Origin: Lachnospiraceae bacterium | Lineage (GTDB): Bacteria > Bacillota > Clostridia > Lachnospirales > Lachnospiraceae | Assembly: GCA_009779895.1 (NCBI GenBank) | Contig: WRBB01000007.1 | Coordinates: 1-64,000, forward strand | Direction: 5' to 3' | DNA: 64,000 nucleotides | Shown: piece by piece, positions 44,081 through 63,981 of the stretch | Layout of the letters: every line of letters starts with the position of its first letter | How positions within the stretch are numbered: position 1 is the first letter of the stretch | Notes under the pieces: model-generated | Database searches by the model: none | The model's input: the letters and a program-made list of their open reading frames with translations, nothing else | What the model was told of the DNA's origin: nothing | Translations under genes and position numbers: made by a program

Positions 44081-44251
44081 TCTAAAAACCCCCTTGATTT
44101 CTTTGCATTCCTTAGTCTCATTACTACTATTATATAAAAATATCATATTCATATTTTAATGTCAAAACGAAACAGCGAAAAAAAGCCTTGGAATATAAAA
44201 CGTGCTTCTGATATGATATATAATAACAATTACCCGAAAAGGAGGTTTCGA

Positions 44252-45262
44252 ATGAATCATCATAAATATAGAAATACCAAAGGTATTGTAGCAGTGGGAT
44301 GTATCGTTACCGATGTTTGCTATACCATAGATAAATACCCACGCAAAGGAAATCTCACAAAAATATATAAGCCTTTTCTTTCCACCGGAGGGCTTAGTAA
44401 TATCGTCATTGATTTGGCCAGACTGGATAAAAATCTACCCATTACTGTAGGCGGAGTCATCGGCACAGATGAACATGGCGATTTTATTTTAGAAAAACTG
44501 GGACAGTATCCGAATGTTAATCTAAACAATATCATTCGTCGTGGCCGAACTTCCACAAGCTATGTTATGACAGAGGCTTGCAGCAAAGAACGAACCTTTT
44601 TCTATGACAGTGTCGGCAACGATGAACTTAGCCCAAAGGACATTGATTTTTCAGCTTTAAAAGGAGATTTTTTCATATTGGAATACCTATTGTCTTTGGA
44701 TGCTTTGGATGCTTTTGATACCGAATATGGCACCAAAAGTGCTTATGTCCTGAACCAAGCCCAAAAAGCCGGTATGAAAACTTTTGTTGATGTGATTTCC
44801 GAGGAAAAAAAAGAACGCTATAAAACAGCAGTGATACCCACTTTAAAATACGTAGACTATTTTACTTGCAATGAAATCGAAGCCGGCTCCATTGTTGGCA
44901 CAAAGCACCATGATGATGCCGGTATTGATGACAATAACATGTTTGCTACTTTAGAAAAAATCCGAACGTTTGGAGTGAGTGAGTGGATTGTGATACACGC
45001 ACCATCCTGTGCCTTTGGTCTAAACTGCAAAACAGGCGAAACCTTTAAAAAACCATCGGCTTCTCTGCCAAAAGATTACATCAAAGGTACCATCGGCGCA
45101 GGGGATGCCTTTGCTGCAGGTGTGGTTTATGCTGCATACAAAGGACTTGACTTGGAAACAGCTATGATAGCCGGCATTCAATGTGCCGCCCGTGCGCTTG
45201 GGCAAATCGACAACAACCTAGGTGTGATTCCTTTTGAACAGATGATGGTTGAGCAACTTTAA
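44252..45262 (+). CDS. PfkB-family carbohydrate kinase
   Basis: A 336-residue kinase of the ribokinase/PfkB family. Signature 1 is near STGGLSNIVIDLARL (about 44-58). Signature 2 is GTIGAGDAFAAGVVYA (about 279-294), with the catalytic Asp in GAGD. Substrate is not predictable from motifs; ribose, fructose, deoxy-sugars or nucleosides are all handled by the family. The ATG at 44252 follows AAAAGGAGG by six bases; a longer reading from 44159 has no such site. Candidate promoter: TTGGAA at 44188 and TATGAT at 44212. It is divergent from the malic enzyme gene. Confidence 0.88.
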   Translation: MNHHKYRNTKGIVAVGCIVTDVCYTIDKYPRKGNLTKIYKPFLSTGGLSNIVIDLARLDKNLPITVGGVIGTDEHGDFILEKLGQYPNVNLNNIIRRGRTSTSYVMTEACSKERTFFYDSVGNDELSPKDIDFSALKGDFFILEYLLSLDALDAFDTEYGTKSAYVLNQAQKAGMKTFVDVISEEKKERYKTAVIPTLKYVDYFTCNEIEAGSIVGTKHHDDAGIDDNNMFATLEKIRTFGVSEWIVIHAPSCAFGLNCKTGETFKKPSASLPKDYIKGTIGAGDAFAAGVVYAAYKGLDLETAMIAGIQCAARALGQIDNNLGVIPFEQMMVEQL

Positions 45263-45269
45263 ACATCAT

Positions 45270-45313
45270 TGCAACAGGCAAAGTCACTTTGTACAGTTTC
45301 TTGCATTTTTTTT
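45270..45313 (+). terminator. weak terminator after the PfkB kinase gene
   Basis: A short hairpin (CAAAG / CTTTG around 279-291 of the block, with flanking TGCAA / TTGCA) followed by a run of eight T residues. Confidence 0.45.
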
Positions 45314-45423
45314 AGTTACTGCTCACATTGTATCATTCCTTTGACTTCGTTATACTTTTACCTAGGGTTACATAACCTCAGATTACTGATACTAGCAAAT
45401 AAATTTAAGGAGACTATATTAAA

Positions 45424-46536
45424 ATGGCAAGTTTATCACTAAAAGACATTCAAAAAATTTATCCCAATGGATTCCAAGCAGTAAAAGACTTTAATCTGGA
45501 TATTGAGGACAAAGAGTTTATCATCTTTGTTGGTCCTTCCGGTTGCGGAAAGTCTACTACACTACGTATGATTGCCGGTTTGGAAGATATTTCCGGCGGT
45601 AGCCTCGAAATCGACGGCAAAGTTATGAATGATGTTGAACCAAAAGACCGTGATATTGCGATGGTTTTCCAAAACTATGCGCTTTATCCTCACATGACTG
45701 TACGTGACAACATGGCCTTTGGTTTGAAATTACGTAAGGTTCCAAAAGCTGAAATCAAAGAAAAAGTAGAAGAAGCCGCTCGCATTCTTGATCTGGACAA
45801 ATTGTTAGATCGTAAACCAAAAGCCCTTTCCGGCGGTCAAAGACAACGTGTGGCCATGGGGCGTGCTATCGTTCGTCATCCCAAAGTTTTCTTAATGGAT
45901 GAGCCTCTTTCAAACTTAGATGCCAAATTGAGAGTACAGATGCGGATTGAAATCTCAAAATTACACCAAAACTTAGGTGCAACGATGATTTATGTTACAC
46001 ATGACCAAACAGAAGCCATGACACTTGGTACCAGAATCGTCGTTATGAAAGACGGTATTGTGATGCAAGTGGATTCTCCAACAAACCTTTACAATACACC
46101 AAACAATCTGTTTGTTGCCGGTTTTATCGGTTCTCCACAAATGAACTTCCAAGATGCGGTCGTAGCAGTAAATGGCAGTGATGTGACTTTAACCATTGGT
46201 GATCATGTATTAAAAGCACCTGCTTCCAAAAAACAAGCCTTGATTGATGGCGGTTATGACGGCAAAACGATTGTTTTAGGCATTCGTCCGGAAAACATTC
46301 ATGACGAAGAGTCTATTATTGCTGCAAATCCTGATTCTGTTATCACATCAAATATCAAAGTTTATGAGTTATTGGGTGCGGAAGTTTATTTATACTTTGA
46401 TGTAGAAGGCACACAAATGACTGCACGTGTTAACCCACGTACAACACTTAGAACCGGTGATGATGCAACATTTGCATTGGATATGGAAAAAATCCATCTC
46501 TTTGACAAAGAAACAGAGTTGACGATTACAAACTAA
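45424..46536 (+). CDS. msmK: MsmK/UgpC-type sugar ABC transporter ATPase (orphan)
   Basis: A 370-residue family-1 carbohydrate importer ATPase with Walker A GPSGCGKST (about 38-46), signature LSGGQRQRVAMGRAIV (about 138-153), Walker B VFLMDEPLSNLD (about 157-168), H-loop THD, and the C-terminal MalK-type regulatory OB domain (GIRPENIH motif near 289). No permease or binding protein is adjacent, which is usual for MsmK in Firmicutes, where one ATPase serves several sugar importers. AAGGAGA precedes the ATG. A terminator lies 32 bases after its stop. Confidence 0.92.
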   Translation: MASLSLKDIQKIYPNGFQAVKDFNLDIEDKEFIIFVGPSGCGKSTTLRMIAGLEDISGGSLEIDGKVMNDVEPKDRDIAMVFQNYALYPHMTVRDNMAFGLKLRKVPKAEIKEKVEEAARILDLDKLLDRKPKALSGGQRQRVAMGRAIVRHPKVFLMDEPLSNLDAKLRVQMRIEISKLHQNLGATMIYVTHDQTEAMTLGTRIVVMKDGIVMQVDSPTNLYNTPNNLFVAGFIGSPQMNFQDAVVAVNGSDVTLTIGDHVLKAPASKKQALIDGGYDGKTIVLGIRPENIHDEESIIAANPDSVITSNIKVYELLGAEVYLYFDVEGTQMTARVNPRTTLRTGDDATFALDMEKIHLFDKETELTITN

Positions 46537-51614: not shown

Positions 51615-52565
51615 TTAATTTACAATAAACGGGCACGCTTTTCCCGTTAATACATCCATCAAATTTTTCACCGACGCATTTGCCATATTTTCCGTCGCTT
51701 CCTTCGTATGGGCACCGGTATGAGGTGTCAGCACCACATTATCCAGCTCAAATAAAGGAGATGCTTCAGGTGGCTCTACCGCAAAAGCATCTAAGCCCAA
51801 TCCACCCAATCTACCACTTTGCAGAGCTTCATAAGCATCTTGTTCATGCACCAAGCCTCCCCTTGATGTATTCACAATAATAACACCCGACTTCATCAAC
51901 TGAATGGTTTTTTTATTAACATAATGTAAGGTTTCGTCATTGAGCGGAATATGCAAGCTAATTACATCTGACTCTTTCATCACATCCATTTGCGTACCAT
52001 TTTCGATTTCATGTTCCCGGCAATAAGATTCATCCATAAAAGGGTCGTATGCGATGACTTTCATACCAAAACCCTGACCGCAACGAGCAACCACTTTCCC
52101 AATGGCACCCAATCCCAAAATCCCCAAGGTTTTGCCTTTTAATTCCATGCCACTGGAACGCACCCATGCTCCGGATTTCGTCTGTTTATCCAAGTAAGGG
52201 ATCCGCCTGGCCAACGACAAAATCAAACCCATTGCCAACTCTCCCACTGCTTGGGCATTCACACCCGGCGTATTTGTAACAGGTATCCCTGCTTTCTTTG
52301 CCGCTTCAATATCCACACGATCATATCCGGCCCCATAACGGGAAATCACTTTTAAATTCGGAGCCGCTTGTATTACCTTTTCTGTCACAAAATCCAATCC
52401 CGCCAAATAGCCGTCACAATCTTTTAATAATTCAATTAATTCCTCTTCCTGCAAAGGTTTCCCTGTTGGATTAAACACCAACTCTTTGGCAAATTCTCGT
52501 AATTTCTCCATTGCGTCTGATTGATTATTCGAATGCATCGATGTAGGTGTCACAAGTATTTTCAT
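51615..52565 (-). CDS. D-isomer-specific 2-hydroxyacid dehydrogenase (phosphoglycerate-dehydrogenase-like)
   Basis: A 316-residue NAD-dependent dehydrogenase. The Rossmann motif LGILGLGAIGKVVA lies near 147-160, the catalytic Arg in VNTSRGGLVHE (near 229), the Glu in FAVEPPEASP (near 258) and the His in LTPHTGAHTKEA (near 282). The family interconverts 2-keto and D-2-hydroxy acids, such as glycerate and hydroxypyruvate or 2-keto sugar acids. AAAGGAAT lies upstream of the ATG. It ends just before the cluster terminator. A truncated copy of its C-terminus is at 63103-63189. Confidence 0.9.
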   Translation of the reverse strand: MKILVTPTSMHSNNQSDAMEKLREFAKELVFNPTGKPLQEEELIELLKDCDGYLAGLDFVTEKVIQAAPNLKVISRYGAGYDRVDIEAAKKAGIPVTNTPGVNAQAVGELAMGLILSLARRIPYLDKQTKSGAWVRSSGMELKGKTLGILGLGAIGKVVARCGQGFGMKVIAYDPFMDESYCREHEIENGTQMDVMKESDVISLHIPLNDETLHYVNKKTIQLMKSGVIIVNTSRGGLVHEQDAYEALQSGRLGGLGLDAFAVEPPEASPLFELDNVVLTPHTGAHTKEATENMANASVKNLMDVLTGKACPFIVN

Positions 52566-52587
52566 AATAATTCATCCATTCCTTTCT

Positions 52588-53544
52588 CTAGTGATTGTAT
52601 AAACGCACAAAATTATCATGTGTCATTTTTTCAATTTGTGCCTCGGTAATACCGTATTCTCGCAACAAAGGAAAAAAAGACGTAAATAAATAACACAACC
52701 CAATCCCCTCGGGATGATATGCTTTTAATCGCTCCCTTGTTGTATCCAAAGAACAAAGTATTTGATTGCCATAACCAGCATCTATCAACTCTTTTATAAG
52801 CTTTGCTTCACTTTCATCATCATGATACTTAAAACGGCCAATGGTATCAAACTCTAAGGTAATACCTTTTTCCAAAACCGGCAAGTAAAATGACAAAGGC
52901 TTTATTTCTCTATCCATATGACAAAACATAATCTTACGCGGGTTGATGCCCCATTTTTGTAAATATCCCAGCAATGCCACATGATCCGCTTCTTGGTCAA
53001 TATGAACTTTCATAGGCACATCACAATGTATCGCCGCTTTTGCCGCCGCTTCAAAACACTTCAGATATTGCGGTGTCAATCCAATTACATCAAGAGCTGT
53101 CTTAATAATACCGGCACGTAAACCGACAACCCACTCTTTTGGTGCCTTGCTATCTATATCTCGAAAAACGCCCACTTCCAATTCATGCACATAAACATCT
53201 TTTAATTGTTCCAAAGAATAAGTAAATAACCAGTGATCTTTTGGATAAAAAGCATGCTTATGAAAACCTGTCGAACAAATAATATGGACACCCGTATCTT
53301 TTGATATTTGGGCCAGTCCCTCCGCTACCCGATTGCAACCACCCGGTTGTGCATCTACGAGGGTGTTACCTCCCATGCTTTTAAAAGCACGCACTTCAAC
53401 CGTACTCTTATTTATATCATCAATACAAAGAGCCTGATTTAATGTTGCAGATACACCTTTGCTAATCAATAAGTGTTCATGGCTTTGGCAAAAGCCAATT
53501 TCATCCGGTGCTTTTGCCCCATTTACTGTTATGATTTTTTTCAT
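52588..53544 (-). CDS. phosphotriesterase-family hydrolase, likely sugar-lactonase
   Basis: A 318-residue amidohydrolase-superfamily TIM barrel. The metal ligands of the PTE family are visible: His22 and His24 in CQSHEHLL, a Lys in AGIIKT (near 147), His in KVHIDQ (near 183), His in IMFCHMD (near 217) and Asp in LCSLDTTR (near 267). PTE-like lactonases open sugar lactones and related esters; phosphotriesters are side substrates. In this cluster of dehydrogenases, lactone hydrolysis fits well. AGGTGATGAAAG precedes the ATG at 53544. Confidence 0.85.
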   Translation of the reverse strand: MKKIITVNGAKAPDEIGFCQSHEHLLISKGVSATLNQALCIDDINKSTVEVRAFKSMGGNTLVDAQPGGCNRVAEGLAQISKDTGVHIICSTGFHKHAFYPKDHWLFTYSLEQLKDVYVHELEVGVFRDIDSKAPKEWVVGLRAGIIKTALDVIGLTPQYLKCFEAAAKAAIHCDVPMKVHIDQEADHVALLGYLQKWGINPRKIMFCHMDREIKPLSFYLPVLEKGITLEFDTIGRFKYHDDESEAKLIKELIDAGYGNQILCSLDTTRERLKAYHPEGIGLCYLFTSFFPLLREYGITEAQIEKMTHDNFVRLYNH

Positions 53545-53550
53545 CTTTCA

Positions 53551-54126
53551 TCACCTGCGTGGATTGTCTACAATCACAGCTTTTCCGTCTTCTTCCACAA
53601 TCATTTTACGATAGCCGTTCTCTTCAATTGTGCCATAATCATGACCGGCATCTGCATCAAACGTATAAAACAAAACCAAAGGCTCTGAACCCGTATTTAC
53701 CGTTCTATGTGAATATCTGCGCGGCACATAAACCGCATCCCCTTTTTTAAGAGGTTTCTCAATGGTATCTCCCTCCGGATTTTCCATCACCATATAACCC
53801 GCACCCTGTAAGGTATAATATACCTCCGCCGTTTCCAAAATCGTATGAAAATGACCTTTTGTCATATAATACTCATTCCCGATTTTTCCGGGATAAATGA
53901 CTGTAGTACCAAAAGCCAAATCTCCTTTTCGTTCCGGCGCACCAAGTTCATGAAACTCATAAATCATCGGGTCTTCTTTTTTCAAAATCTCTGCTGCTGC
54001 ATCCGTATCTAAAAAGATATCTTTCACAACAGAAAGAGGACGTTTTGACGTTACCGCACTGTCTGATTTTCCTGTATCCAAATCAAAATCTACTACAAAG
54101 CCATCATTCCAATTAAAGTGATTCAT
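53551..54126 (-). CDS. cupin-type (archaeal-type) glucose-6-phosphate isomerase-like protein
   Basis: A 191-residue single-domain cupin. The metal motif KGHFHTILETAEVYY (His, His, Glu) is near residues 92-106 and the fourth ligand His is in PRRYSHRTVN (near 138). This is the pattern of the Pyrococcus-type phosphoglucose isomerase, unrelated to the usual Pgi. Substrate is not proven: it may isomerise another aldose or keto acid phosphate. The ATG at 54126 follows AAAGGAAGC; a GTG eight codons upstream is less likely. It starts 34 bp after the shikimate-dehydrogenase-like gene ends. Confidence 0.82.
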   Translation of the reverse strand: MNHFNWNDGFVVDFDLDTGKSDSAVTSKRPLSVVKDIFLDTDAAAEILKKEDPMIYEFHELGAPERKGDLAFGTTVIYPGKIGNEYYMTKGHFHTILETAEVYYTLQGAGYMVMENPEGDTIEKPLKKGDAVYVPRRYSHRTVNTGSEPLVLFYTFDADAGHDYGTIEENGYRKMIVEEDGKAVIVDNPRR

Positions 54127-54159
54127 CCCACTGCTTCCTTTCTCTGACACAACATCTAT

Positions 54160-55098
54160 CTAAACACTTTTTGCAATTTCACTTAATTTTTCCAAACACT
54201 GTTCATCTATATCTATATGAAATACTTCCGCAATCACCTGCGTCCAACCATGAATAAAGTAAATCCAACCGTCTTCCACAAACAAACGTCTTTCCTTGGC
54301 TTGTGCTTGCGCTTGATACATAAATATCAAATCACCCCTATAATTGATTTCCCAAACCAAACTATCCATAGGAAACACACAAGCATCCGTAAGAGGGGAA
54401 CCCGGCATATCCTTGCCTAAACCCGTTGCGTTTACAATCAAAGAACGGGGTTTTAAGCTTGCTAATGTCTTGTCATTATCCACCGGTGTCGGATTGTGTG
54501 TGTACTCCATTTTTGTTTTTGGATTCAAACCTTTCAAATGCGCTTTGGCCGACTCTAACCGAGGTATACTTCGATTGGCCAATATGATTTTGCCCGGTAC
54601 ATTACTTCCAAATTTTTCTTGGGTCAAATACATACTCATAGCCAAACTACTGCCACCGGCACCTAATAAAAGTACATCACCATCAAAATCTTTCCAATAA
54701 TTTGCCGGCACAAAATGCTCCAACGCCAAACCACTGGAAATCGGATCCTTTGCATGGGCACAAAAATCATTGCCCTTTTTCGAAATACAAGAAATCTCAT
54801 TTAATGCCGCTGCGTAAGGATCTATATATGTAAACATATCTTTACACGCATGAAACAAATCGATCTTATGTGTTGTCACTAAGGCTCCCAGTGAAAGAGG
54901 GTCATTTTTAATAAAATCTACCGCCTCACGATAATCTTCATCCGGACCATGAATAGGAAGATCAATGCCTTTTATCACGGCATCTTTCAAATCCAGGGCA
55001 CGCGCCCATTCCGGAAAAACGCTCATAATAGAAGATTTTGCTGTTGTAACTCCAATAAAATATAACGTTGGTTGTGTTGCCTTTTTGTATTTTCCCAT
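54160..55098 (-). CDS. shikimate-dehydrogenase-like oxidoreductase
   Basis: A 312-residue AroE-type two-domain protein. The substrate-binding domain has VTTAKSSIMSVFPEWARALD (from about 17, replacing the SxS motif), catalytic Lys in VTTHKIDL (Lys78) and Asp in AHAKDPISSG (Asp118). The NADP(H) domain has LLLGAGGSSLAMSMYL (near 143) and INATGLGK-like VNATGLGKDMPG. It is about 30 residues longer than AroE of E. coli. In a sugar catabolism cluster it probably oxidises a cyclic polyol, such as quinate, shikimate or a similar cyclitol, rather than serving aromatic synthesis; this is inference. GAGGAAAA precedes the ATG. Confidence 0.82.
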   Translation of the reverse strand: MGKYKKATQPTLYFIGVTTAKSSIMSVFPEWARALDLKDAVIKGIDLPIHGPDEDYREAVDFIKNDPLSLGALVTTHKIDLFHACKDMFTYIDPYAAALNEISCISKKGNDFCAHAKDPISSGLALEHFVPANYWKDFDGDVLLLGAGGSSLAMSMYLTQEKFGSNVPGKIILANRSIPRLESAKAHLKGLNPKTKMEYTHNPTPVDNDKTLASLKPRSLIVNATGLGKDMPGSPLTDACVFPMDSLVWEINYRGDLIFMYQAQAQAKERRLFVEDGWIYFIHGWTQVIAEVFHIDIDEQCLEKLSEIAKSV

Positions 55099-55137
55099 AA
55101 AAACATTTTCCTCTCTAAATTAACTATTATCAACCCA

Positions 55138-56127
55138 TCACTTAACCACAAAACTTCGTGAAGAACGATCTGTATTAATCGCAATGGCAATTAAAATAAT
55201 GGCACCATATACAATGCTTTGCCAAAACACATTCACGCCAACAATATTCATACCATTTTGAATCATAGCAACAATAAACACACCTAATATTGTATTTAAA
55301 ACGCTTCCTGCACCACCCACCAAAGAGGTACCGCCAAGCACTACAGCCGAAATAACCATCAAAGTAAATGCTTCACCGGCAGTAGGGGCGGCACTTCTCG
55401 CTTTTGCCATCAAAAAAATGGCACCCAAAGCCGTACAAAATCCATTCATCGCAAATACGGTAATTTTAATCCGGTCTACCGGAAGTCCGGCCAGTCGAGC
55501 TGTTCGTTCATTGCCACCAATCGCATACACACCACGTCCAAAAGATGTTCGTGTTAACAATATATAATAAACCACAATCACAATAAAAGCAATAAGCAAA
55601 GGCAAACCTAATGGACCAAAAGAAATATTATACCAGTTAATGGTTGCCCAAAGTGGCTGTGGTAAAAAAACAGATGCATTTTGAATCAACAGTGCTGCAG
55701 ATGCCCAAATAGACATAAACGCTAAGGATGCAATAAAGGATGGTGCCTTTGTTTTTACATGAATCAATCCCAATAAAATACCTGAGACAATCGCCGCAAT
55801 TAAAGTCAACAGAAATGCTACGATCGCTGCAACCACCACCATACCCGGATTTGCTTCAACCGTTTCTAAAAAACGCAGCAAAATTGTAATAACCAACACG
55901 TTGGCCGCAGAACAAAGAGCACCTATCGAGAGATCTATTGATCCTAAGAGCAAAACCGGTGTCATACCTGCCGCCATAATCATTAGGGGAGCTGTGTCAC
56001 TTAACAGGCTATTGATGTTCGCCGCATTCAAAAAACGAGGCTCTATCATTGTAAATATCGCTATCAACAAAACCATTACAGCAATGCTGAAATAGGTATT
56101 AAAATACTTTCTCTGTATGGCTTTCAT
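55138..56127 (-). CDS. RbsC-type ABC sugar permease (second of two)
   Basis: A 329-residue permease with nine or ten hydrophobic spans and the conserved AAGMTPVLLLGSIDLSIGAL motif and GRGVYAIGGNERTARLAGLP motif. It lies 25 bp after the ATPase gene. The other permease of this system is at 57706. Heteromeric permease pairs occur in some family-2 importers. GTGAGGAG precedes the ATG. Confidence 0.9.
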   Translation of the reverse strand: MKAIQRKYFNTYFSIAVMVLLIAIFTMIEPRFLNAANINSLLSDTAPLMIMAAGMTPVLLLGSIDLSIGALCSAANVLVITILLRFLETVEANPGMVVVAAIVAFLLTLIAAIVSGILLGLIHVKTKAPSFIASLAFMSIWASAALLIQNASVFLPQPLWATINWYNISFGPLGLPLLIAFIVIVVYYILLTRTSFGRGVYAIGGNERTARLAGLPVDRIKITVFAMNGFCTALGAIFLMAKARSAAPTAGEAFTLMVISAVVLGGTSLVGGAGSVLNTILGVFIVAMIQNGMNIVGVNVFWQSIVYGAIILIAIAINTDRSSRSFVVK

Positions 56128-56152
56128 ATATTTATTCTCCTCACACCTTTTG

Positions 56153-57682
56153 CTAAACCATTAAGCTTACTAAATCAACCTGGCTCGGCTTCTCTCCAAC
56201 AGCCGCATTAAACTCTCCGGTGATTAAACCGTCTCGCATGACCAATACCCGATTGCTCATACTGCTACACTCTTCTAAGGTATCTCCCAGCAAAATGACA
56301 GACTTACCCTCCGCAACAATATCTCGAATCAAGTTATAAATTTCTTCTTTTGCACCAACATCCACGCCTCTGGTTGGATGATTTAATATCAATACATCCG
56401 CCTCTGATACAAGGGCACGAGAAAATACTACTTTCTGTTGATTTCCACCGGAAAGCTGTATCACAAGCTCATCTCCACCATTGGTCTTAATATTCAATTT
56501 TTTAATCCACTCTTTTGCCTGTTCCCCTACACGTTTTCGAGAAACAAGTCCATTTTTCTTTAACAGTTTTGCATTGGAAAGAGCAATATTGTCCTCAACC
56601 GACAAGCTTCGAATCACACCCTCTACAAGACGTTCTTTGGGAATCATCAAAATACCATCTTTCAAAGCATGTACGGGAGCACTATATTTAACAGCTCTAC
56701 CCTTTACCGTCAACGCACCGCTTGTAGGCTTCTCATCTCCACAAAGAACCGAACATATCTCTTCCTTTCCGGAACCTACTACGCCACAGAAGCCTAAGAT
56801 TTCTCCCTTGTGTAATTTAAAACTACAATGCTTAAATTTACCCCAAAGCCCTAAGTCATTGGCTTCTAAAATCACTTCATCTGATGGCTCTGATTGCTTT
56901 TCCAACTTATAATACTCTGTCGTTGTTTCACGACCAACCATCAACTCATACAATATACGTTCTGTCGCCGCTTCAACCGGCATGTTCCCGGCATTTCCAC
57001 CATCTTTATACACATAAACACGATCTGAAATTTCCAATACTTCATCCAAACGATGCGATACAAAAACTACAGAATGGCCTTTTGCTGTTAATTTACGTAT
57101 CTCAACAAAAAGTCGCTGCGTTTCTTCTTCATTTAAAACAGAAGTCGGTTCATCCAATAAAATCAGACATTTTTCATCACCCTCTTTTTGCTTGGTAATA
57201 TTAACCACTTTTGCAATTTCAATCATCTGTCTCGTTGCAAAGTTTAAATCAATCACTTTCTTTCTAGGGTTAATAAAATCACTACCCACCTCAGCCAATA
57301 CGCCTTTGGCATCTTCATACATCTTCTTCCAATTGACGATACCAAACTTTCTGAAGTCTTTCTCATGACCAAAAAATATATTTTGCCCAACGGATAAGCT
57401 AGTAATCAACGACTGCTCTTGATATACCATACCCACACCCGCCGCATTTGCATCCAAAGGATTTTTGGGTGAAAACGCTTTTCCGTGCATCATCATTTCA
57501 CCGATATCCTGCCCTTGCACACCAATAATAATCTTAAGTAACGTAGATTTTCCGGCACCATTCTCACCGATTAAGCCAATCACTTCTCCTTCATAAACAT
57601 CTAAATCAACACCCTTTAAGGCTTGTGTTTCATAAAAGGATTTTTTTATGTTTTTTGCAGAAAACATTAACTTTTTTTCCAT
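56153..57682 (-). CDS. RbsA-type double ABC ATPase of the second sugar importer
   Basis: A 509-residue ATPase with two halves. The first has GENGAGKSTLLK (near 39) and LNFATRQMIEIAKVV, then LILLDEPTSVLNE. The second has GVVGSGKEEICSV and a good LSGGNQQKVVFSRALV signature with LILNHPTRGVDVG; note His in place of the usual Glu after Walker B in the second half, and a Phe-Ala-Thr-Arg-Gln start rather than a canonical LSG-x-Q in the first half. Such degenerate halves are typical of the family. The ATG at 57682 follows GAAAGGGGAG; nine further upstream codons are not used. Confidence 0.92.
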   Translation of the reverse strand: MEKKLMFSAKNIKKSFYETQALKGVDLDVYEGEVIGLIGENGAGKSTLLKIIIGVQGQDIGEMMMHGKAFSPKNPLDANAAGVGMVYQEQSLITSLSVGQNIFFGHEKDFRKFGIVNWKKMYEDAKGVLAEVGSDFINPRKKVIDLNFATRQMIEIAKVVNITKQKEGDEKCLILLDEPTSVLNEEETQRLFVEIRKLTAKGHSVVFVSHRLDEVLEISDRVYVYKDGGNAGNMPVEAATERILYELMVGRETTTEYYKLEKQSEPSDEVILEANDLGLWGKFKHCSFKLHKGEILGFCGVVGSGKEEICSVLCGDEKPTSGALTVKGRAVKYSAPVHALKDGILMIPKERLVEGVIRSLSVEDNIALSNAKLLKKNGLVSRKRVGEQAKEWIKKLNIKTNGGDELVIQLSGGNQQKVVFSRALVSEADVLILNHPTRGVDVGAKEEIYNLIRDIVAEGKSVILLGDTLEECSSMSNRVLVMRDGLITGEFNAAVGEKPSQVDLVSLMV

Positions 57683-57705
57683 ATCCGCTCCCCTTTCGAA
57701 ACATA

Positions 57706-58725
57706 TCATTTACTGATGATTGTGGCACCACGTTTTACTGTCAAAATCACAGCAATCAAAATGATTGCACCCTCTATACCGGTTCGAATATGAGGATTAA
57801 TACCAACCATGGTCAAACCATTAAACAACACCGTCATAATCAATACACCGATAAGCGTATTTACAACACCACCTTTGCCGCCGGAAAGTGCCGTACCACC
57901 AATTACAACCGCAGCCTGAGCCGGAAACATCAATCCTGTACCAATACCAACCTGACCTTGCCCCAAACGAAGCGCGCCAACCACACCGGCTACCCCAAAG
58001 CAAAATCCTGCTAACGTAAATACCATTACTTTCACACGGCTCACATTCACACCAACTGCACGTGGAACTGTTTCGTCAGTCCCCACCGCATAAACATAAC
58101 GACCAAAAGGCGTATATTCCTGTATAAAAAAACATATTACAAATACAATAATCGCGACCCAAGCGATTGCCGGAATTCCCAAAAAACTCATTTGCGGAAC
58201 ACTCCTAAAAAATGGGTCTTCTATCGTAGGATGTATCCCACCATATGAAAGCATCCCTATTCCAATGCAAATATTCATAAACGCAAAACTTACCATAAAC
58301 GAGGGGATTTTTAATTTTACATGCATCATACCAATGATAAAACCAATCAATACACTACAAAATATCGCCAAAACCAATCCCCAAATACCTAAGTCAAATT
58401 CCGTTCTTGTATTTAATAGAAAAACACCTGCCAATGAACCTGCCATACCTACAGTTCCATTAATGGATAAATCAATACTACCAATCATAATAACAAAAGT
58501 AAGCCCCAGAGCTACCATCAGGGGAATTGACATCTGATTTAATAGAGCTACTAAGTTACCAACACTAAAAAAAGCATTCCCCATAATCGCTGTGAATACT
58601 ACAATCATCACAACCAATACCAAAATTGGTGTCCATTTCATCAAACGCTCTTTTTTATGATCCAATTTAATCTTTGCGGCAAACTCATCTGTAATTGTCA
58701 TTGTTTTTGCATTCGCTCTAGCCAT
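57706..58725 (-). CDS. RbsC-type ABC sugar permease (first of two)
   Basis: A 339-residue permease with nine or ten spans. It has LGLTFVIMIGSIDLSINGTV (near 91-110) and a GRYVYAVGTDETVPRAVGV loop. A 30-residue charged cytosolic N-terminus precedes the first helix. It lies between the binding-protein gene and the ATPase. A strong GGGAGAGAG precedes the ATG. Confidence 0.9.
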   Translation of the reverse strand: MARANAKTMTITDEFAAKIKLDHKKERLMKWTPILVLVVMIVVFTAIMGNAFFSVGNLVALLNQMSIPLMVALGLTFVIMIGSIDLSINGTVGMAGSLAGVFLLNTRTEFDLGIWGLVLAIFCSVLIGFIIGMMHVKLKIPSFMVSFAFMNICIGIGMLSYGGIHPTIEDPFFRSVPQMSFLGIPAIAWVAIIVFVICFFIQEYTPFGRYVYAVGTDETVPRAVGVNVSRVKVMVFTLAGFCFGVAGVVGALRLGQGQVGIGTGLMFPAQAAVVIGGTALSGGKGGVVNTLIGVLIMTVLFNGLTMVGINPHIRTGIEGAIILIAVILTVKRGATIISK

Positions 58726-58778
58726 TTATCTCTCTCCCATTCTTTTACCAAACGAGGATTTCTTTTTTTGTATACACA

Positions 58779-58810
58779 AGGGTTGGAAATCACTTTTTAT
58801 TTCCAACCCT
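58779..58810 (-). terminator. stem-loop after the binding-protein gene of the second importer
   Basis: Perfect 12-bp stem AGGGTTGGAAAT / ATTTCCAACCCT around an 8-base loop, 37 bases after the binding-protein stop. No T-run follows, so it more likely protects the binding-protein mRNA and lowers permease expression. Confidence 0.6.
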
Positions 58811-58846
58811 ATGTACATATTGTCCTATCTCTTTAAAGCGTGCAAA

Positions 58847-60058
58847 CTATTCCATTGCAGATGCTCTTGCATAAAAGATATTTGTAAAATCAAAACTTGG
58901 TGCATTTTCTACAAAATCAGCAAAAAATTGCTCCACGTTATCTGTTGTTACCAAAACAGACGGTGTAAAGAACTCTCTATATCCTTGCGGCAATTCCTCT
59001 ACATCAAGCAATCCTGTCCAAGCTGCATAAGCGATGGCCAAAGTATAACTACTTTGTAAGAAACCATTGGCTGAAACAGTTGCTACCGCATTTCCTGCTC
59101 TTACCGCCGCTACCATATCATCTGTTGCGTCAATACCTGTTACACCTACTTCTCCTAAAAGCCCTGCATTATCCAACGCTTGTAATACACCGGTCGCCAT
59201 GTTATCATTGGCACACCAAATTCCACCTACATCAGGGGTTACATTTAACCATGTTTCTGTCAAAGTAAGGGCTTCCGCAGTCAACCAATTGCCGGTATCT
59301 TCATGTGCAACCGTGATACCCGGAAACGACTCCAAAGCTGCATCAAAGCCACGTCTACGATCGATTGCCGCAGTATTTCCAAGCATACCCTCGATTACAA
59401 AAACATTGCCTTCACCACCCATGTTTTCAAATAGCAATCTGGCTGTTTCATAACCACCCGTAAAATTATCCGCCGAAGTATGAATCACCCAATTTGGTGT
59501 AAAGTCCATTGGACCGACACCGTCAGGCTTGTTCCAAGCAGTTCCCATAAATCCGCCGCCCTCTGCCATCGCTTCTGCCAAGGCAGGTGCAATTGCAGAT
59601 TCATTTGGATCCGCATAAGCGATTGCATTACCACCGGCTAGTGCTGAAAATTGGCGCATATTATTAATCTCTACGTCATTGGAACCACCTGAATCCAATA
59701 CTTGCGTTGTATGCGCTTGCCCTATGCTATCTAACCATTCAGAAAACATATTCATACCCTCAATTTTCGTTACGATATATGGGTTGTCTAAGCCACGAAT
59801 TGAAACGGCAATATGAAGTTCTGTATCCAATTTCTCTTGTGGAATCTGAGAAGGATCCAAAACAAAGCTTGACCAATCTGTAGCACCGGCATCCGGTGCT
59901 TCCGCCTCATCCGGCTCTTCTGCTACATCGGCATCATCCGCAGGAGCTTCCGCTACAGGTGCTTCTGTACCTGTATCACCCGAATCTGAATCTGTACAAG
60001 CAACTAAGCCCATCATCATCAACCCAACAACAAGTAACAATGCAATCATTTTTTTCAT
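58847..60058 (-). CDS. substrate-binding lipoprotein of the second sugar importer
   Basis: A 403-residue periplasmic-binding-protein type I lipoprotein. The signal has lipobox MGLVAC; the mature start is a low-complexity Ala/Glu/Asp/Pro-rich linker (about 25-60). The core has LHIAVSIRGLDNPYIVTKIEG (near 72) and a ligand loop with WLTAEALTLTE. It is larger than the inositol binder at 38067 and only distantly similar. The ATG at 60058 follows AAAGGAGG. Its promoter is at 60128-60156 with a strong operator at 60087-60108. Ligand unknown. Confidence 0.9.
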   Translation of the reverse strand: MKKMIALLLVVGLMMMGLVACTDSDSGDTGTEAPVAEAPADDADVAEEPDEAEAPDAGATDWSSFVLDPSQIPQEKLDTELHIAVSIRGLDNPYIVTKIEGMNMFSEWLDSIGQAHTTQVLDSGGSNDVEINNMRQFSALAGGNAIAYADPNESAIAPALAEAMAEGGGFMGTAWNKPDGVGPMDFTPNWVIHTSADNFTGGYETARLLFENMGGEGNVFVIEGMLGNTAAIDRRRGFDAALESFPGITVAHEDTGNWLTAEALTLTETWLNVTPDVGGIWCANDNMATGVLQALDNAGLLGEVGVTGIDATDDMVAAVRAGNAVATVSANGFLQSSYTLAIAYAAWTGLLDVEELPQGYREFFTPSVLVTTDNVEQFFADFVENAPSFDFTNIFYARASAME

Positions 60059-60086
60059 ACCTATATCCTCCTTTTGGATTATCCCA

Positions 60087-60108
60087 GACATAGCAATGTT
60101 GCTATGTC
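60087..60108. promoter_or_regulatory. perfect 22-bp palindrome, repressor operator of the second sugar operon
   Basis: GACATAGCAA-TG-TTGCTATGTC, an exact inverted repeat, lies between the promoter (60128-60156) and the binding-protein gene, at about +13 to +34 of the transcript. I saw no second exact copy in the window, and no regulator gene of this cluster is present. Confidence 0.75.
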
Positions 60109-60127
60109 ATAACATTGTATTGATAAA

Positions 60128-60156
60128 ATTATATCATTATCTTTTTAAAAAATCAA
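60128..60156 (-). promoter_or_regulatory. promoter of the second sugar importer operon
   Basis: TTGATT (60156-60151) and TATAAT (60133-60128), 17-bp spacer. It lies immediately after the terminator of the gene at 60210. Confidence 0.75.
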
Positions 60157-60158
60157 TT

Positions 60159-60200
60159 AAAAAAATCAGCGATAAGGTTTATCCTATCGCTGATTTTTTT
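60159..60200 (-). terminator. terminator of the dehydrogenase/lactonase unit
   Basis: Stem AATCAGCGATA / TATCGCTGATT with one bulge near the loop and flanking A and T runs, just after the gene at 60210. It ends that minus-strand unit before the importer promoter. Confidence 0.8.
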
Positions 60201-60209
60201 ACGAAAACA

Positions 60210-61235
60210 CTATTTTTGTACATCAATCAATACTTTCATGGTCGTTTCTCTATTTGCATCAATAAATTCATATGCCTCTTTATACTTCGCAAAAGGAAAA
60301 TGCTTACTTACCAATGGAGCCAATTTCACCTTACCTTGATTCACCAGTTCGATTGCTTCAATGTAATGCTCATTGCGATACATCATACTGTTGTACAAAC
60401 ACAATTCTTTGTCATTTGCCAAAGCAAGATTTACAGTAGCCAACCCATCAAAAACTGCTACCACAATAATCGTAGAACCTTTGCGGGCATATTGAATCGC
60501 TTGACCAATCGTAGTATCATTTCCGGCACAATCAAAGATAACATCCGCTTTATCTGCGCCAAAATGCTCTGAAATGGCATCACCTAAATCAACATTTTTT
60601 GTATTGACGCAAATATCAATGCCACATTCCTTGGCTTTATCCAAACGGAAATCACTAATATCACTAATCATTACCTGGGCCGCACCCATACCTTTGGCCG
60701 CCTGTGCCAAAAGATTTCCAATGGGACCTGCACCCAATACCACCACCTTCGCCCCGGCAATATCTCCTGCTTGGCACACTGCATGAACACCTACTGCAAG
60801 GGGTTCAATCATAGCACCATCTTCAAAACTCATACCATCCGGCAACACAGTAACCTTTTCTGCTGCCACAAGAAAATATTCAGAGGCAGCACCTGTACAT
60901 TGAAAACCCATTACTTTTAGTTCTTCACAAAGATTATATTTTCCATGACGGCAGGGGTAACATACACCACAAACTTCCTGGGGTTGAATGGTCGCTCTTT
61001 GACCAACTTTCAAACGTTCTACGCCCTCACCCAATTCTACAATCTCCCCGGAAACTTCATGGCCTTGTGTCACAGGATAAGACGTAAATGGATGCTTGCC
61101 ATGATATACATGAATGTCAGAACCACAAACACCAATTTCCATCATACGCAATAAAACTTGCCCTTTGCCCGGTTTTACATCTCTCACTTCTCGAAAAGTA
61201 ATAACACCCGGTGCTGTCATAACTTGTTGTAACAT
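60210..61235 (-). CDS. zinc-dependent alcohol dehydrogenase (sorbitol/idonate-dehydrogenase type)
   Basis: A 341-residue MDR enzyme. Catalytic zinc ligands are in GVCGSDIHVYHG (Cys about 37) and TQGHEVSGEIVELG (His and Glu about 59-60). The structural zinc site is CGVCYPCRHGKYNLC (four Cys, about 89-103). The nucleotide fold is VVLGAGPIGNLLAQAAKG. The enzymes oxidise polyols or sugar acids at a secondary alcohol. The ATG at 61235 follows AAAAGGAG; a longer start is not supported. Its substrate probably reflects the cluster's imported sugar. Confidence 0.9.
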   Translation of the reverse strand: MLQQVMTAPGVITFREVRDVKPGKGQVLLRMMEIGVCGSDIHVYHGKHPFTSYPVTQGHEVSGEIVELGEGVERLKVGQRATIQPQEVCGVCYPCRHGKYNLCEELKVMGFQCTGAASEYFLVAAEKVTVLPDGMSFEDGAMIEPLAVGVHAVCQAGDIAGAKVVVLGAGPIGNLLAQAAKGMGAAQVMISDISDFRLDKAKECGIDICVNTKNVDLGDAISEHFGADKADVIFDCAGNDTTIGQAIQYARKGSTIIVVAVFDGLATVNLALANDKELCLYNSMMYRNEHYIEAIELVNQGKVKLAPLVSKHFPFAKYKEAYEFIDANRETTMKVLIDVQK

Positions 61236-61258
61236 AATATCTCTCCTTTTCAAACGCC

Positions 61259-62251
61259 TTAAGGTTCAATTTCCAACAAACTCATCGTTGCAGGTAACTC
61301 ATGGGCTGTATTAACCTTGTCACCACCGGTCACACAATCAAAACAAGAAACCGCAATCTTTCCGTTCCACACACAAGGCTCACCCGGTTGATCCAATTCA
61401 CCATTTACACCATCGGTATCCGGGCTTTGCGCAATTCGTGTCACCTTTCCACTCGGATCAATCTTCGCAATGGCATTGACCACAAAATCTGCCACATATA
61501 TATTGCCGTATTCATCAATCGTCATACCATCTGTGGAACGTAAATTCTCCGGATCCTTTGCAAAAGATACATTTTCTTTGATGCTGCCATCCGGATTAAA
61601 ACGAATCTTAAATACCTCACCATCACCAAAATTACCCACATATAGATTGCCTGCTTTATCAAAAACAATACCATCCATACCATACTGATCATCCGGATTG
61701 TAAGTTTCGTATGTGACAAAAATATTTTCATCTTCCAGCGTATTCGTGATTTGAATGTTTTCATCATCCAAATGAAAACGATAAACACAACTAAGCAAAT
61801 TGCCGCTTTTTGTTTTCACTTTTGTTAACAAACTTTGCGTCACATAAATATAATCACCTTGAATACGTATTCCATTGGGATGTTCCATACCATCAGCTAC
61901 TACCGTAGTTTTTTCAATCACATCCCCATTCATACGAACACGAATAATCCGACCTTGAAACGCCAAACGCGCATCATTTCCCCAGCCTTGATTGTCTACA
62001 ATATACAAATCATCATCGGGGCCATAGGCCAAACCCATGGCACGAGCCTCTCCCGTTTTCTCACTCAGGGGTACATCAAACCACTTTCTTACATTACCCT
62101 TTGTATCCACCTTACAAATACAACTCGGTTTTGACATATCAGCAAAATTGGGACAGGATAAAATCAAATTTCCCTCTTTATCAATCTCCATGCCATCCGG
62201 TGTAACAGCATACTCCTCCGGCAATAAACATAATAATTTTGGTTCTTGCAC
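61259..62251 (-). CDS. SMP-30/gluconolactonase-like beta-propeller protein
   Basis: A 330-residue beta-propeller of the SMP-30/gluconolactonase group. Repeats of the type GLAYGPDDDLYIVDN, VFDKAGNLYVGNFGDGEV and TIDEYGNIYVADFVVN carry the calcium-binding Asp/Asn residues, with an early Glu in EEYAVTPDGMEIDKEG. No signal peptide, so it is cytosolic. The family hydrolyses sugar lactones formed by dehydrogenases, which matches its gene neighbours. The start is GTG at 62251, nine bases after AAGGAGG. It lies between the alcohol dehydrogenase and an SDR gene. Confidence 0.82.
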   Translation of the reverse strand: MQEPKLLCLLPEEYAVTPDGMEIDKEGNLILSCPNFADMSKPSCICKVDTKGNVRKWFDVPLSEKTGEARAMGLAYGPDDDLYIVDNQGWGNDARLAFQGRIIRVRMNGDVIEKTTVVADGMEHPNGIRIQGDYIYVTQSLLTKVKTKSGNLLSCVYRFHLDDENIQITNTLEDENIFVTYETYNPDDQYGMDGIVFDKAGNLYVGNFGDGEVFKIRFNPDGSIKENVSFAKDPENLRSTDGMTIDEYGNIYVADFVVNAIAKIDPSGKVTRIAQSPDTDGVNGELDQPGEPCVWNGKIAVSCFDCVTGGDKVNTAHELPATMSLLEIEP

Positions 62252-62277
62252 TTTATCGTACCTCCTTGACCTTACTT

Positions 62278-63054
62278 TTATACACAGCTAAAGCAACCAT
62301 CAATCACCAGATCACTACCGTTGGTAAAGCTTGCTGCATCAGACAGCAAGTAAATAACACCACCTGCCAGCTCTTCCGGTTGACCATAGCGTTCCATCGG
62401 TGTCAAATCCATCCATCTGTCTTGCCAATCTTGCCTCACATGGCAAGTCAATTCTGTATACATATAACCCGGGCTAACGCTATTCACACGAATACCATCT
62501 TTGCAATACTCTACTGCAAGGCTTTTTGTCAAATGAATCACGCCTGCTTTTGAAGTATTATAAGACGCCTGCTCTTGCGGCCAATTCACAATATGACCTG
62601 ACATAGATGCCGTATTTACAATAGAACCTTTTTTGCCATTTGCAATCAAATATTTTGCAAACTCACTGGCAACATAATATACACCATTTAAGTTTACATC
62701 AATTACTTTTAACCACTCCGCAGGTGTTACTTCTTTTGCTGATTTATGAAGAACAATGCCGGCATTGTTAAACAACAAATCCAATGTTCCCATCTCTGCG
62801 CCCGCTTTTTCAATCGCAACTTTCACAGCATCCGGATCTGTCACATCCACTTCAAATGCAGTCACTTTTTTGCCTGTAGCTTTTGCAATCTCATCTGCCG
62901 CTACCTTAGCTTTCTCTCCTTGCACATCAAAAATAGCAATCTCTGCTCCAACCTCAGCTATCTTTTGGGCAACTACCCTACCAATTCCTTGCGCACCGCC
63001 GGTTACAACAACAACCTTACCCTCTAAAGAAAACAGTTTTTCCAATGCAGTCAT
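62278..63054 (-). CDS. short-chain dehydrogenase/reductase
   Basis: A 258-residue classical SDR. The coenzyme motif is VTGGAQGIGRVVAQ (near 17-30), the NNAG motif is DLLFNNAGIVL (near 91), and the catalytic Ser, Tyr and Lys are in NTASMSGHIV (near 146) and ASYNTSKAGV (near 162). An Asp after the second strand (AIFDVQGEK) indicates NAD preference. Probably oxidises a sugar or polyol of the cluster. AAGGAGG precedes the ATG. It is separated from the next SDR by about 160 bp holding a gene scar. Confidence 0.9.
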   Translation of the reverse strand: MTALEKLFSLEGKVVVVTGGAQGIGRVVAQKIAEVGAEIAIFDVQGEKAKVAADEIAKATGKKVTAFEVDVTDPDAVKVAIEKAGAEMGTLDLLFNNAGIVLHKSAKEVTPAEWLKVIDVNLNGVYYVASEFAKYLIANGKKGSIVNTASMSGHIVNWPQEQASYNTSKAGVIHLTKSLAVEYCKDGIRVNSVSPGYMYTELTCHVRQDWQDRWMDLTPMERYGQPEELAGGVIYLLSDAASFTNGSDLVIDGCFSCV

Positions 63055-63102
63055 TTTAAAAATCCTCCTTCACTTAAAACATCTTTATTATCATTTCCAT
63101 TG

Positions 63103-63189
63103 TTACACACTATTTACAATAAACGGACATTCTTTCCCCGTCAATACATTCATCCAATTTTTTACCAATATATTCACCATATTTTCCGC
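63103..63189 (-). pseudogene. C-terminal remnant of a 2-hydroxyacid dehydrogenase
   Basis: Twenty-eight codons reading AENMVNILVKNWMNVLTGK then ECPFIVNSV and a stop at 63103. This matches the C-terminus of the dehydrogenase at 51615-52565 (ENMANASVKNLMDVLTGK then ACPFIVN). A stop codon lies directly upstream of the matching part in that frame, and no catalytic region remains. It sits between two SDR genes. Confidence 0.85.
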
Positions 63190-63216
63190 TTATTCTTTCT
63201 TTTCTCATTTTCATTA

Positions 63217-63981
63217 TTATCTGGCGGTATAAGCACCATCCACAGACAAAACCGCACCGGTAGCATAAGGCATACTATCATTGGCAAAATGCAAGCAAGC
63301 ATAAGCAATATCCCGTGGATTCCCCATTTTCATCAAGGGTCTATCCGAACTAAGCTCTATCAAAGTCGCTTGTGGATCCGCTGAAGAATCAATTATATTT
63401 TGTACCAATGGCGTTAAGACTCGCCCCGGACACACACAATTCACTCTAATATTTTCCAAAGCATAGTCAACTGCCATACATTGTGACAAAGAAATCATTG
63501 CCGCTTTGGAAACATTGTATGCAGTCTGCCCGGCAATCGCAGCCAATCCCGCTTCTGACGCTATGTTAACAATAGAACCGCGACCATTTTTTTGCATCAG
63601 AGGAATCGCATACTTACTACATAAAAAAGCACCATCCAAATTAACATTCATAATTTTTTGCCACTGAGAAAAGTCCGTTTCACCAACCTTACCCGGCGCA
63701 AAAATCCCGGCACAATTCACTAAAATATCCAATGTCCCATGGGCTTTCGCAATTTTTTCAAAAACCTCTTTTACCTGATTTTCTTTGCCGATATCAAGAG
63801 CAAACACATCCGCTTGTCCACCAATTTCCGCTTTTGCCGCCTGCAATTCATCTTGGTTTATACCAAGCAAAACCACATATGCACCTTGGCTACGAAACAA
63901 CTGTGCCACTTCTTTGCCAATACCGGAAGAACCACCGGTAATAGCAGCCACTTTCCCTTCTAAACAAAAACATTCTTTCAT
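63217..63981 (-). CDS. short-chain dehydrogenase/reductase (second)
   Basis: A 254-residue classical SDR. Motifs: ITGGSSGIGKEVAQLF (near 14-29), LVNCAGIFAPG (near 86-96, with Cys in place of the usual Asn), and NIASEAGLAAIAGQTAYNVS with catalytic Tyr and Lys (near 137-160). Here the region after the second strand, VLLGINQDE, lacks the NAD-type Asp. It is the first gene of the visible cluster on this strand and has a strong GGGAGG site at the right edge; the unit may continue beyond the window. Substrate unknown. Confidence 0.88.
   Translation of the reverse strand: MKECFCLEGKVAAITGGSSGIGKEVAQLFRSQGAYVVLLGINQDELQAAKAEIGGQADVFALDIGKENQVKEVFEKIAKAHGTLDILVNCAGIFAPGKVGETDFSQWQKIMNVNLDGAFLCSKYAIPLMQKNGRGSIVNIASEAGLAAIAGQTAYNVSKAAMISLSQCMAVDYALENIRVNCVCPGRVLTPLVQNIIDSSADPQATLIELSSDRPLMKMGNPRDIAYACLHFANDSMPYATGAVLSVDGAYTAR

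Follow-up and report, generated by a model that had tools for sequence, protein, structure and literature searches.

The contig WRBB01000007.1 from a Lachnospiraceae bacterium (assembly GCA_009779895.1) carries, in its first 64,000 nucleotides (the stretch analysed here, termed the window), a run of 12 open reading frames (ORFs) on the minus strand across positions 51615 to 63981, among them four of the five genes that form the core of a conserved module. We consider it possible, at something short of an even chance, that this module breaks down unusual phosphorylated ketohexoses by an oxidative route that resembles the Entner-Doudoroff pathway and dispenses with its dehydratase. What is predicted to be new is such a route with replaced steps, together with one uncharacterised enzyme family, here called AroEL. 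An earlier note on this DNA had read the same cluster as genes that oxidize a sugar or cyclitol step by step, and the genes it named are all present, on one strand and where it placed them, as judged from the ORF list, Pfam matches and, for the AroE-like ORF, a predicted structure.

Families were assigned by Pfam and NCBIfam profile searches, in which curated cut-offs decide membership. The AroEL gene (positions 54160 to 55098) encodes a protein that has no match in Pfam or among PDB sequence families and whose best NCBIfam model, AroE, scores 28.3 bits against a cut-off of 413; its predicted structure nevertheless has the AroE fold. It is followed on the minus strand by a gene for a cupin protein of the phosphoglucose isomerase family (GPIc, 53551 to 54150, starting with ATG at 54126 or GTG at 54150), which exceeds the PF06560 cut-off (107.9 versus 20.7 bits), matches archaeal-type cupin phosphoglucose isomerases end to end (E 1.7e-56) and retains the stretch TKGHFH...E.Y...H. 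Among members of the GPIc cluster, the two parts of the cupin metal motif, [TS]KGHxH and E.Y, are present in 71 of 72 and in all 72 respectively. The third core gene (52588 to 53544; PF02126, 138 bits) encodes a phosphotriesterase (PTE)-family protein predicted to open a sugar-lactone phosphate; its best curated model, phospho-furanose lactonase, gives 142.5 of the 630 bits required, and its best PDB matches are 3msr and 3ovg (E 1.3e-31). The fourth (51615 to 52565; PF02826/PF00389) specifies a D-2-hydroxyacid dehydrogenase (HDH) with a predicted role in oxidizing an aldonate phosphate at carbon 2. Among curated models HDH comes nearest to phosphoglycerate dehydrogenase (286.8 bits), with glyoxylate reductase (245.7 bits) next, and it reaches the cut-off of neither.

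To assess linkage we used the best 80 of 140 confirmed AroEL loci from other genomes, with partners detected by tblastn at an E value of 1e-12 and half of the query covered. GPIc is linked to AroEL in 71 of the 80 loci, HDH in 65, PTE in 56 and the fifth core gene, for an aldolase of the 2-keto-3-deoxy-6-phosphogluconate (KDPG)/KHG type, in 53; an FGGY kinase gene is linked in 51, a GntR gene in 41 and a gene for an SMP-30 lactonase in 11. All five core genes occur together in 42 loci; among the 55 loci with 8 kb or more on both sides of AroEL, 36 have the full set. Two of the 80 lack core partners altogether. The clustering of the core is thus far beyond chance, and the conservation in relatives on which the earlier note had staked its grouping is borne out. 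Where present, the best PTE, HDH and aldolase matches always lie on the strand of AroEL, as do 68 of 71 GPIc and 38 of 51 FGGY matches. Pairwise distances among the core genes correlate (rho 0.34-0.75) in an ORF-called set in which antisense ORFs hid the aldolase in some loci, L010 and L011 among them. The correlation of FGGY with the core is weaker in that set (0.13-0.29) and therefore fits an exchangeable entry gene.

Members of the AroEL family share the motifs VTTHK, AKDP, NYRG and HGWTQ, and Lys78 and Asp118 are invariant in 32 sequences. On alignment with the genome's own AroE, Lys78 pairs with a Lys by MAFFT, and Asp118 pairs with an Asp by hhalign and with the neighbouring Asp by MAFFT; a Lys and an Asp form the catalytic pair of AroE. 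The protein collection holds at least 7,992 AroEL relatives, including those of the gut Lachnospiraceae Clostridium scindens and Faecalicatena contorta, and the family also occurs in Paenibacillus, in other bacilli and on rhizobial plasmids; no match was found in the phages searched. Its distribution is patchy. A strong match exists in four of 98 relatives, the genome under study included (a 25-bit match in G088 is left out of this count), and in five of 398 genomes of the phylum, again including this genome and one partial match. PF06560 exceeds 80 bits in five of the 98 relatives, matches below 30 bits (G001, G050 and a second in G015) not being counted, and three of these five carry AroEL, an overlap whose hypergeometric probability, with kinship ignored, is about 3e-4; leaving out the genome under study raises it to about 4e-3. 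Database records that name the gene label it shikimate dehydrogenase. Quinate or shikimate use was set aside as the leading idea, given that AroEL is linked to genes for a sugar kinase, an isomerase and an aldolase and that the genome has a separate true AroE (positions 25203 to 25451 of contig C2).

The earlier note had remarked that no kinase or aldolase was in view. This is an effect of the window's edge, as both genes lie further along the same contig, which is 93,164 bases long (C7). An FGGY kinase gene at C7:78028-79539, 23 kb from AroEL, is nearest to xylulokinase and exceeds that cut-off (388.5 versus 380 bits), and a KDPG/KHG-type aldolase gene at C7:86720-87385, 32 kb from AroEL, encodes the genome's sole PF01081 match (269 bits, cut-off 241). 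Beyond the window C7 also carries genes for a further zinc alcohol dehydrogenase, a two-component regulator, part of a UTRA-domain regulator, an aldo-keto reductase and a LacI-type regulator, the regulators and importer parts being identified in part by reading the sequence. Glycerate kinase (PF02595) is encoded in the genome. The glucose-6-phosphate dehydrogenase family (PF00479) was not found in this 96.8% complete assembly, and nine of 14 control genomes gave a match.

Three more ABC importers of the CUT2 type are encoded within about 22 kb past the window (C7:64000-84000), and several sugars may feed one core through multiple CUT2 importers. Adjoining importer genes, C7:69110-70075 encodes a protein that exceeds the NCBIfam cut-off for D-psicose 3-epimerase (434.5 versus 300 bits) and may reveal a natural role for such epimerases.

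Because the core combines a hexose-phosphate-type isomerase with a KDPG-type aldolase, and a kinase is commonly linked to it, the route is most likely a phosphorylated one. A conserved system of sugar oxidation, as in the earlier note's account, is therefore supported, and a kinase-free chemistry on a free sugar or cyclitol is not. From gene content, protein families, linkage, conserved residues and the finding that no tested genome has a phosphogluconate dehydratase above the curated cut-off, we infer a substrate, a set of reactions and their order, with one gene in the module for each predicted step. CUT2 importers and variable dehydrogenases would supply a ketose, which an FGGY kinase would convert to the ketose phosphate. 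GPIc would isomerize this to an aldose phosphate, AroEL would oxidize the aldose phosphate at carbon 1 to a lactone, and the PTE protein, or a metallo-beta-lactamase (MBL)-fold hydrolase in Alphaproteobacteria, would open the lactone to the acid. HDH would then oxidize carbon 2 to yield a 2-keto acid phosphate, which the aldolase would cleave to hydroxypyruvate and glyceraldehyde 3-phosphate. Hydroxypyruvate would subsequently be reduced to glycerate and phosphorylated by glycerate kinase. This sequence is proposed because HDH stands in the place of the dehydratase, and no dehydratase over the cut-off accompanies it. By analogy, the AroE fold has precedent in acting on a sugar, namely 5-ketofructose reductase, and the HDH family handles phosphorylated aldonates, as PdxB and KguD show.

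Entry into the module appears to vary between loci. In three Lachnospiraceae loci (L014, L015 and L033) that have no FGGY gene in the ORF-based neighbourhood, there are genes for a ribokinase-like PfkB kinase and a protein like glucosamine-6-phosphate deaminase (NagB), assigned by a profile scan of the L014 copies. FGGY and NagB would both yield ketose phosphates, and the entry metabolite is therefore most simply a ketose phosphate. The same loci encode what reads from its sequence as a PIG-L-type deacetylase, for which the NCBIfam scan gave no match at its threshold, and the PfkB kinase, NagB-like, deacetylase and Gfo/Idh genes there are divergent from AroEL and HDH. The set possibly represents entry of an N-acetyl amino sugar into the same module. 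In four others (L054, L056, L058 and L085), a short GH88-family protein of 320-332 amino acids is encoded directly upstream of the core or near it, as called by a Pfam scan of the L054 copy and by clustering for the rest; these loci also have genes that read like parts of a CUT1-type importer. On the FGGY side of L021 and L023, adjoining the kinase and importer genes, lie two different DeoC-like genes, whose L021 products score 48.6 and 61.5 bits against a cut-off of 117.

The step at which the proposed route departs most from precedent is the one preceding the aldolase. HDH, a constant partner, sits where a dehydratase would be expected. In 38 carrier genomes, which are those with the full core after L044, L045, L067 and L071 are set aside from the 42 full-core loci, no protein exceeds the cut-off for phosphogluconate dehydratase (edd); the best scores 306.8 of 708 bits, and two of 14 controls are over the cut-off. 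The window genome likewise has no protein over this cut-off, its ILVD_EDD matches giving 256-288 bits. With that genome's three paralogues as queries, the 80 loci contain no ILVD_EDD relative (ILVD_EDD was the one dehydratase superfamily searched genome-wide), and no dehydratase is found among the recurrent neighbour families identified. Glycerate kinase PF02595 is present in 28 of the 38 carriers and in five of 14 control genomes, which are not matched non-carriers. The aldolase of the window genome and five linked aldolases tested all exceed the curated Eda subfamily cut-off. Linked aldolases fall into two subclasses, as 21 of 46 have the Arg of an E.T.R motif and 25 do not; this Arg binds the substrate carboxylate.

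Plasmid-borne copies provide a second view of the lactonase step. AroEL is present in 15 plasmid records at 47-57% identity, 14 from Alphaproteobacteria and one from Paraburkholderia. In the six of these loci that were examined, all alphaproteobacterial, GPIc, the aldolase, AroEL, HDH, an MBL-fold hydrolase and FGGY are present in every case and PTE in none, whereas the MBL-fold hydrolase occurs in none of the 80 loci of the main set and PTE in 56. The gene order GPIc, aldolase, AroEL, HDH, MBL holds in five of the six and differs in Shinella zoogloeoides (L094); the GPIc gene of one locus (L091) is unannotated and was found by tblastn only. With PTE in one group and the MBL-fold protein in the same slot in another, a shared lactone-opening step best explains the exchange. 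Of the MBL proteins, one weakly resembles L-ascorbate-6-phosphate lactonase (43.9 bits, cut-off 306), and a second that was tested has a generic match only. Beside the core in Sinorhizobium meliloti Ak57 is a regulator that comes near to HexR (283.6 bits, cut-off 296), a KDPG sensor. In Rhizobium leguminosarum, the binding protein encoded next to the core matches PDB entry 4ry9 (E 2.7e-115), probably a talitol complex, although no paper confirming this was found; the match is not used as evidence.

A wider reading, possible but doubtful, is that the module constitutes an oxidative variant of the Entner-Doudoroff pathway in which a second oxidation replaces dehydration, yielding hydroxypyruvate and glyceraldehyde 3-phosphate. 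AroEL would then be a new AroE-fold family of sugar-phosphate dehydrogenases, two unrelated folds would have come to serve the lactonase step independently of each other, and the module, parts of which occur in Atribacterota and Lentisphaerota, would move between Bacillota and Alphaproteobacteria and make rare ketoses and hexitols usable.

Several observations weigh against a dehydratase-free cleavage of ketohexose phosphates. The known substrates of Eda-family enzymes are 3-deoxy acids, and a member that releases hydroxypyruvate, an extrapolation from these, would have an activity new to the family; the scores of the two Eda subclasses, both over the cut-off, fit an ordinary 3-deoxy substrate as well or better. 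ILVD_EDD-family matches exist in 37 of the 38 carriers, with up to five in a genome, and some of these are surely IlvD. One such protein in the window genome (C10:19342-20280, in a 604-residue open frame) reaches no curated cut-off and could be an unlinked dehydratase. On the Marinovum plasmid (L095), a gene annotated as dihydroxyacid/phosphogluconate dehydratase lies about 3 kb past the core, on the opposite strand and beside a TRAP transporter. The window genome's only KDPG-type aldolase is 32 kb away and on the other strand, and its kinase is nearest to xylulokinase, so that the substrate may have another carbon number. Ten of the 38 carriers have no PF02595 match, atribacterial loci have AroEL and GPIc without PTE, HDH and the aldolase, and L015 and L033 are without GPIc and PTE. 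Finally, the GntR-PTE distance correlation (0.44) falls inside the core range, and the measure is not clean. Separately, the C10 locus has a GH1-like ORF, read from sequence, at its end.

Some of these points favour a hidden dehydration within an otherwise similar phosphorylated route, an unlikely alternative that nonetheless deserves serious weight. An unlinked ILVD_EDD enzyme, or the cupin itself by eliminating the carbon 3 hydroxyl from its enediol, would give a 2-keto-3-deoxy acid phosphate, the aldolase would release pyruvate and glyceraldehyde 3-phosphate, and HDH would be a redox-balancing or salvage reductase. The Eda scores, the ILVD_EDD proteins below the edd cut-off in carriers, among them the unassigned one of the window genome, and the annotated gene in L095 all suit this scheme. 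It fits less well with the constancy of HDH, which is better suited to a pathway step than to salvage, with the isomerase residues retained in GPIc, and with core neighbourhoods in which neither ILVD_EDD relatives nor recurrent dehydratase families were seen. The xylulokinase-like kinase raises another scheme, in which pentose phosphates undergo the same series of reactions: phosphorylation by a pentulokinase, isomerization of the pentose phosphate, hydrolysis of a pentono-1,4-lactone 5-phosphate, oxidation at carbon 2, and cleavage to hydroxypyruvate and phosphoglycolaldehyde. In keeping with it, the PTE protein is closest to phospho-furanose lactonase among curated models and to 3msr, a pentonolactone-phosphate lactonase, in the PDB, and some loci have a linked gene for a HAD phosphatase. 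We regard the pentose scheme as improbable, given that GPIc matches hexose-phosphate isomerases over its whole length, that KDPG-type aldolases are six-carbon enzymes, that phosphoglycolaldehyde would be a poor product, and that the contig encodes a protein of the D-psicose 3-epimerase type.

Least probable of all, in our estimation, is the earlier note's own scheme, in which a free sugar or cyclitol is oxidized to an acid through unphosphorylated lactones, with short-chain dehydrogenases/reductases (SDRs), a zinc alcohol dehydrogenase (Zn-ADH) and SMP-30 as the main pathway. SMP-30 and Zn-ADH genes do lie close to the core in this genome, as they do in L016 (which also has an SDR), L022 and L025, and Gfo/Idh and IolM/IolO-like proteins lie beside it in other loci. 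However, SMP-30 is far rarer near AroEL than the isomerase, aldolase and kinase, and in the window genome the SMP-30, Zn-ADH and SDR genes precede a predicted terminator. These genes are variable accessories and not the centre of the pathway; as SMP-30 and Zn-ADH recur beside the core in those other loci, the most fitting view of the set is that it feeds in one substrate out of several.

Comparison with known systems helps to define the proposed oxidative route. The Entner-Doudoroff pathway comprises glucose-6-phosphate dehydrogenase, 6-phosphogluconolactonase, Edd and Eda. The module would follow it in forming a lactone by oxidation, opening this lactone and then making a 2-keto acid phosphate for a KDPG-type aldolase. 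It differs in having an AroE-fold first dehydrogenase, a PTE or MBL lactonase and HDH in place of the dehydratase, and in the failure to find a glucose-6-phosphate dehydrogenase-family protein in the window genome or an over-cut-off Edd in the 38 carriers. AroEL is 13-20% identical to the shikimate/quinate dehydrogenases AroE and YdiB and to 5-ketofructose reductase, and is set apart from them by its own motifs and its lack of a Pfam match; it is also linked to sugar genes, with the true AroE elsewhere in the genome. The PTE proteins, 56 of 57 of which have an HEH motif, share their family with the phospho-furanose lactonase branch, whereas the distance of the window's protein from that branch's cut-off places it in another subfamily. 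In Pseudomonas, 2-ketogluconate 6-phosphate is used through KguK and KguD, the latter reducing it towards 6-phosphogluconate, and Edd follows. HDH would resemble KguD as a D-2-hydroxyacid dehydrogenase for a 2-keto aldonate phosphate, but its direction is predicted to be oxidative and no over-cut-off Edd was found in the module's carriers.

The Thermotoga-type inositol route employs IolG, IolM, IolN and IolO. Proteins resembling IolG, IolM and IolO are encoded on the flanks of the core in some loci, but they are inconstant, those tested are under their cut-offs, and that route offers no role for the core enzymes. Both the inositol (IolG-IolM-IolN-IolO) and idonate routes were rejected on finding only sub-cut-off matches, the IolG-like neighbour in L052 scoring 292 of 355 bits. 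The sulfoquinovose, apiose and ascorbate routes were considered as well and tentatively set aside. Idonate and quinate use were the known pathways against which the earlier note had set its proposal. No NCBIfam model for either reaches its cut-off and the genes linked to AroEL are sugar genes, though the fold alone would also be compatible with quinate. Use of L-glucose, as described in PMC12632266, includes a dehydration step and is thus different from the module. Full-text searches of open-licence papers yielded no description of the gene set, in agreement with the earlier note's statement that it matches no standard pathway; a subscription paper could be missed by such searches.

If the proposed oxidative route is correct, central sugar catabolism would have a branch, with enzymes of its own, that is so far unlisted. 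The names of thousands of genes would then be wrong, and rare-sugar phenotypes of gut and rhizosphere bacteria could be tested directly.

The remaining genes of the window's cluster, all on the minus strand, encode an importer and the accessory enzymes. The CUT2 importer consists of two permeases (55138 to 56127 and 57706 to 58725; both PF02653, BPD_transp_2), an ATPase with two ABC domains (56153 to 57709; PF00005 twice) whose gene overlaps that of the second permease by 4 bases, and a sugar-binding lipoprotein (58847 to 60091; PF13407, Peripla_BP_4). The lipoprotein's best PDB match is 2rjo (E 8.9e-57); PDB sequence matches name no ligand for it, and its predicted structure is poor (predicted local distance difference test score 54.9). 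The accessory genes encode Zn-ADH (60210 to 61253; PF08240/PF00107), the SMP-30/SGL lactonase (61259 to 62251; PF08450, 67 bits), SDR 2, a polyol or sugar dehydrogenase (62278 to 63054; PF13561), and SDR 1 (63217 to 63981; PF13561), which adjoins a second CUT2 importer just past the window's end; an SDR is paired with the same importer type also in L020, L049 and L053. The best curated models for Zn-ADH are all under their cut-offs (PRK10083, 210 bits; IolM, 183 of 450; idonate dehydrogenase, 177 of 469), and SDR 2 barely exceeds the loose 'glucose 1-dehydrogenase' subfamily model PRK07231 (221.8 versus 215 bits).

The genes for the binding protein, permeases and ATPase and the four core genes are separated by 6-121 bases or overlap by 4 bases. 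Ahead of them, on the same strand, lies a promoter-like site (60128 to 60156; 10 of 12 consensus positions, with TG before the -10 element), and between the Zn-ADH and binding-protein genes is a terminator-like stem of 19 pairs (60158 to 60201), which the SDR, SMP-30 and Zn-ADH genes precede. The 12 genes thus probably form two transcription units, split at the stem and promoter-like site (60201-60128), as judged from consensus matches of which neither class as a whole exceeds shuffled sequence (33 promoter-like sites against a shuffle mean of 35.6, and 11 terminator-like sites against 9.7). About 5 kb from the cluster on the opposite strand (44159-46536), the sequence also reads as an ORF for a PfkB-like kinase and one for an ABC ATPase of the sn-glycerol/maltose importer type.

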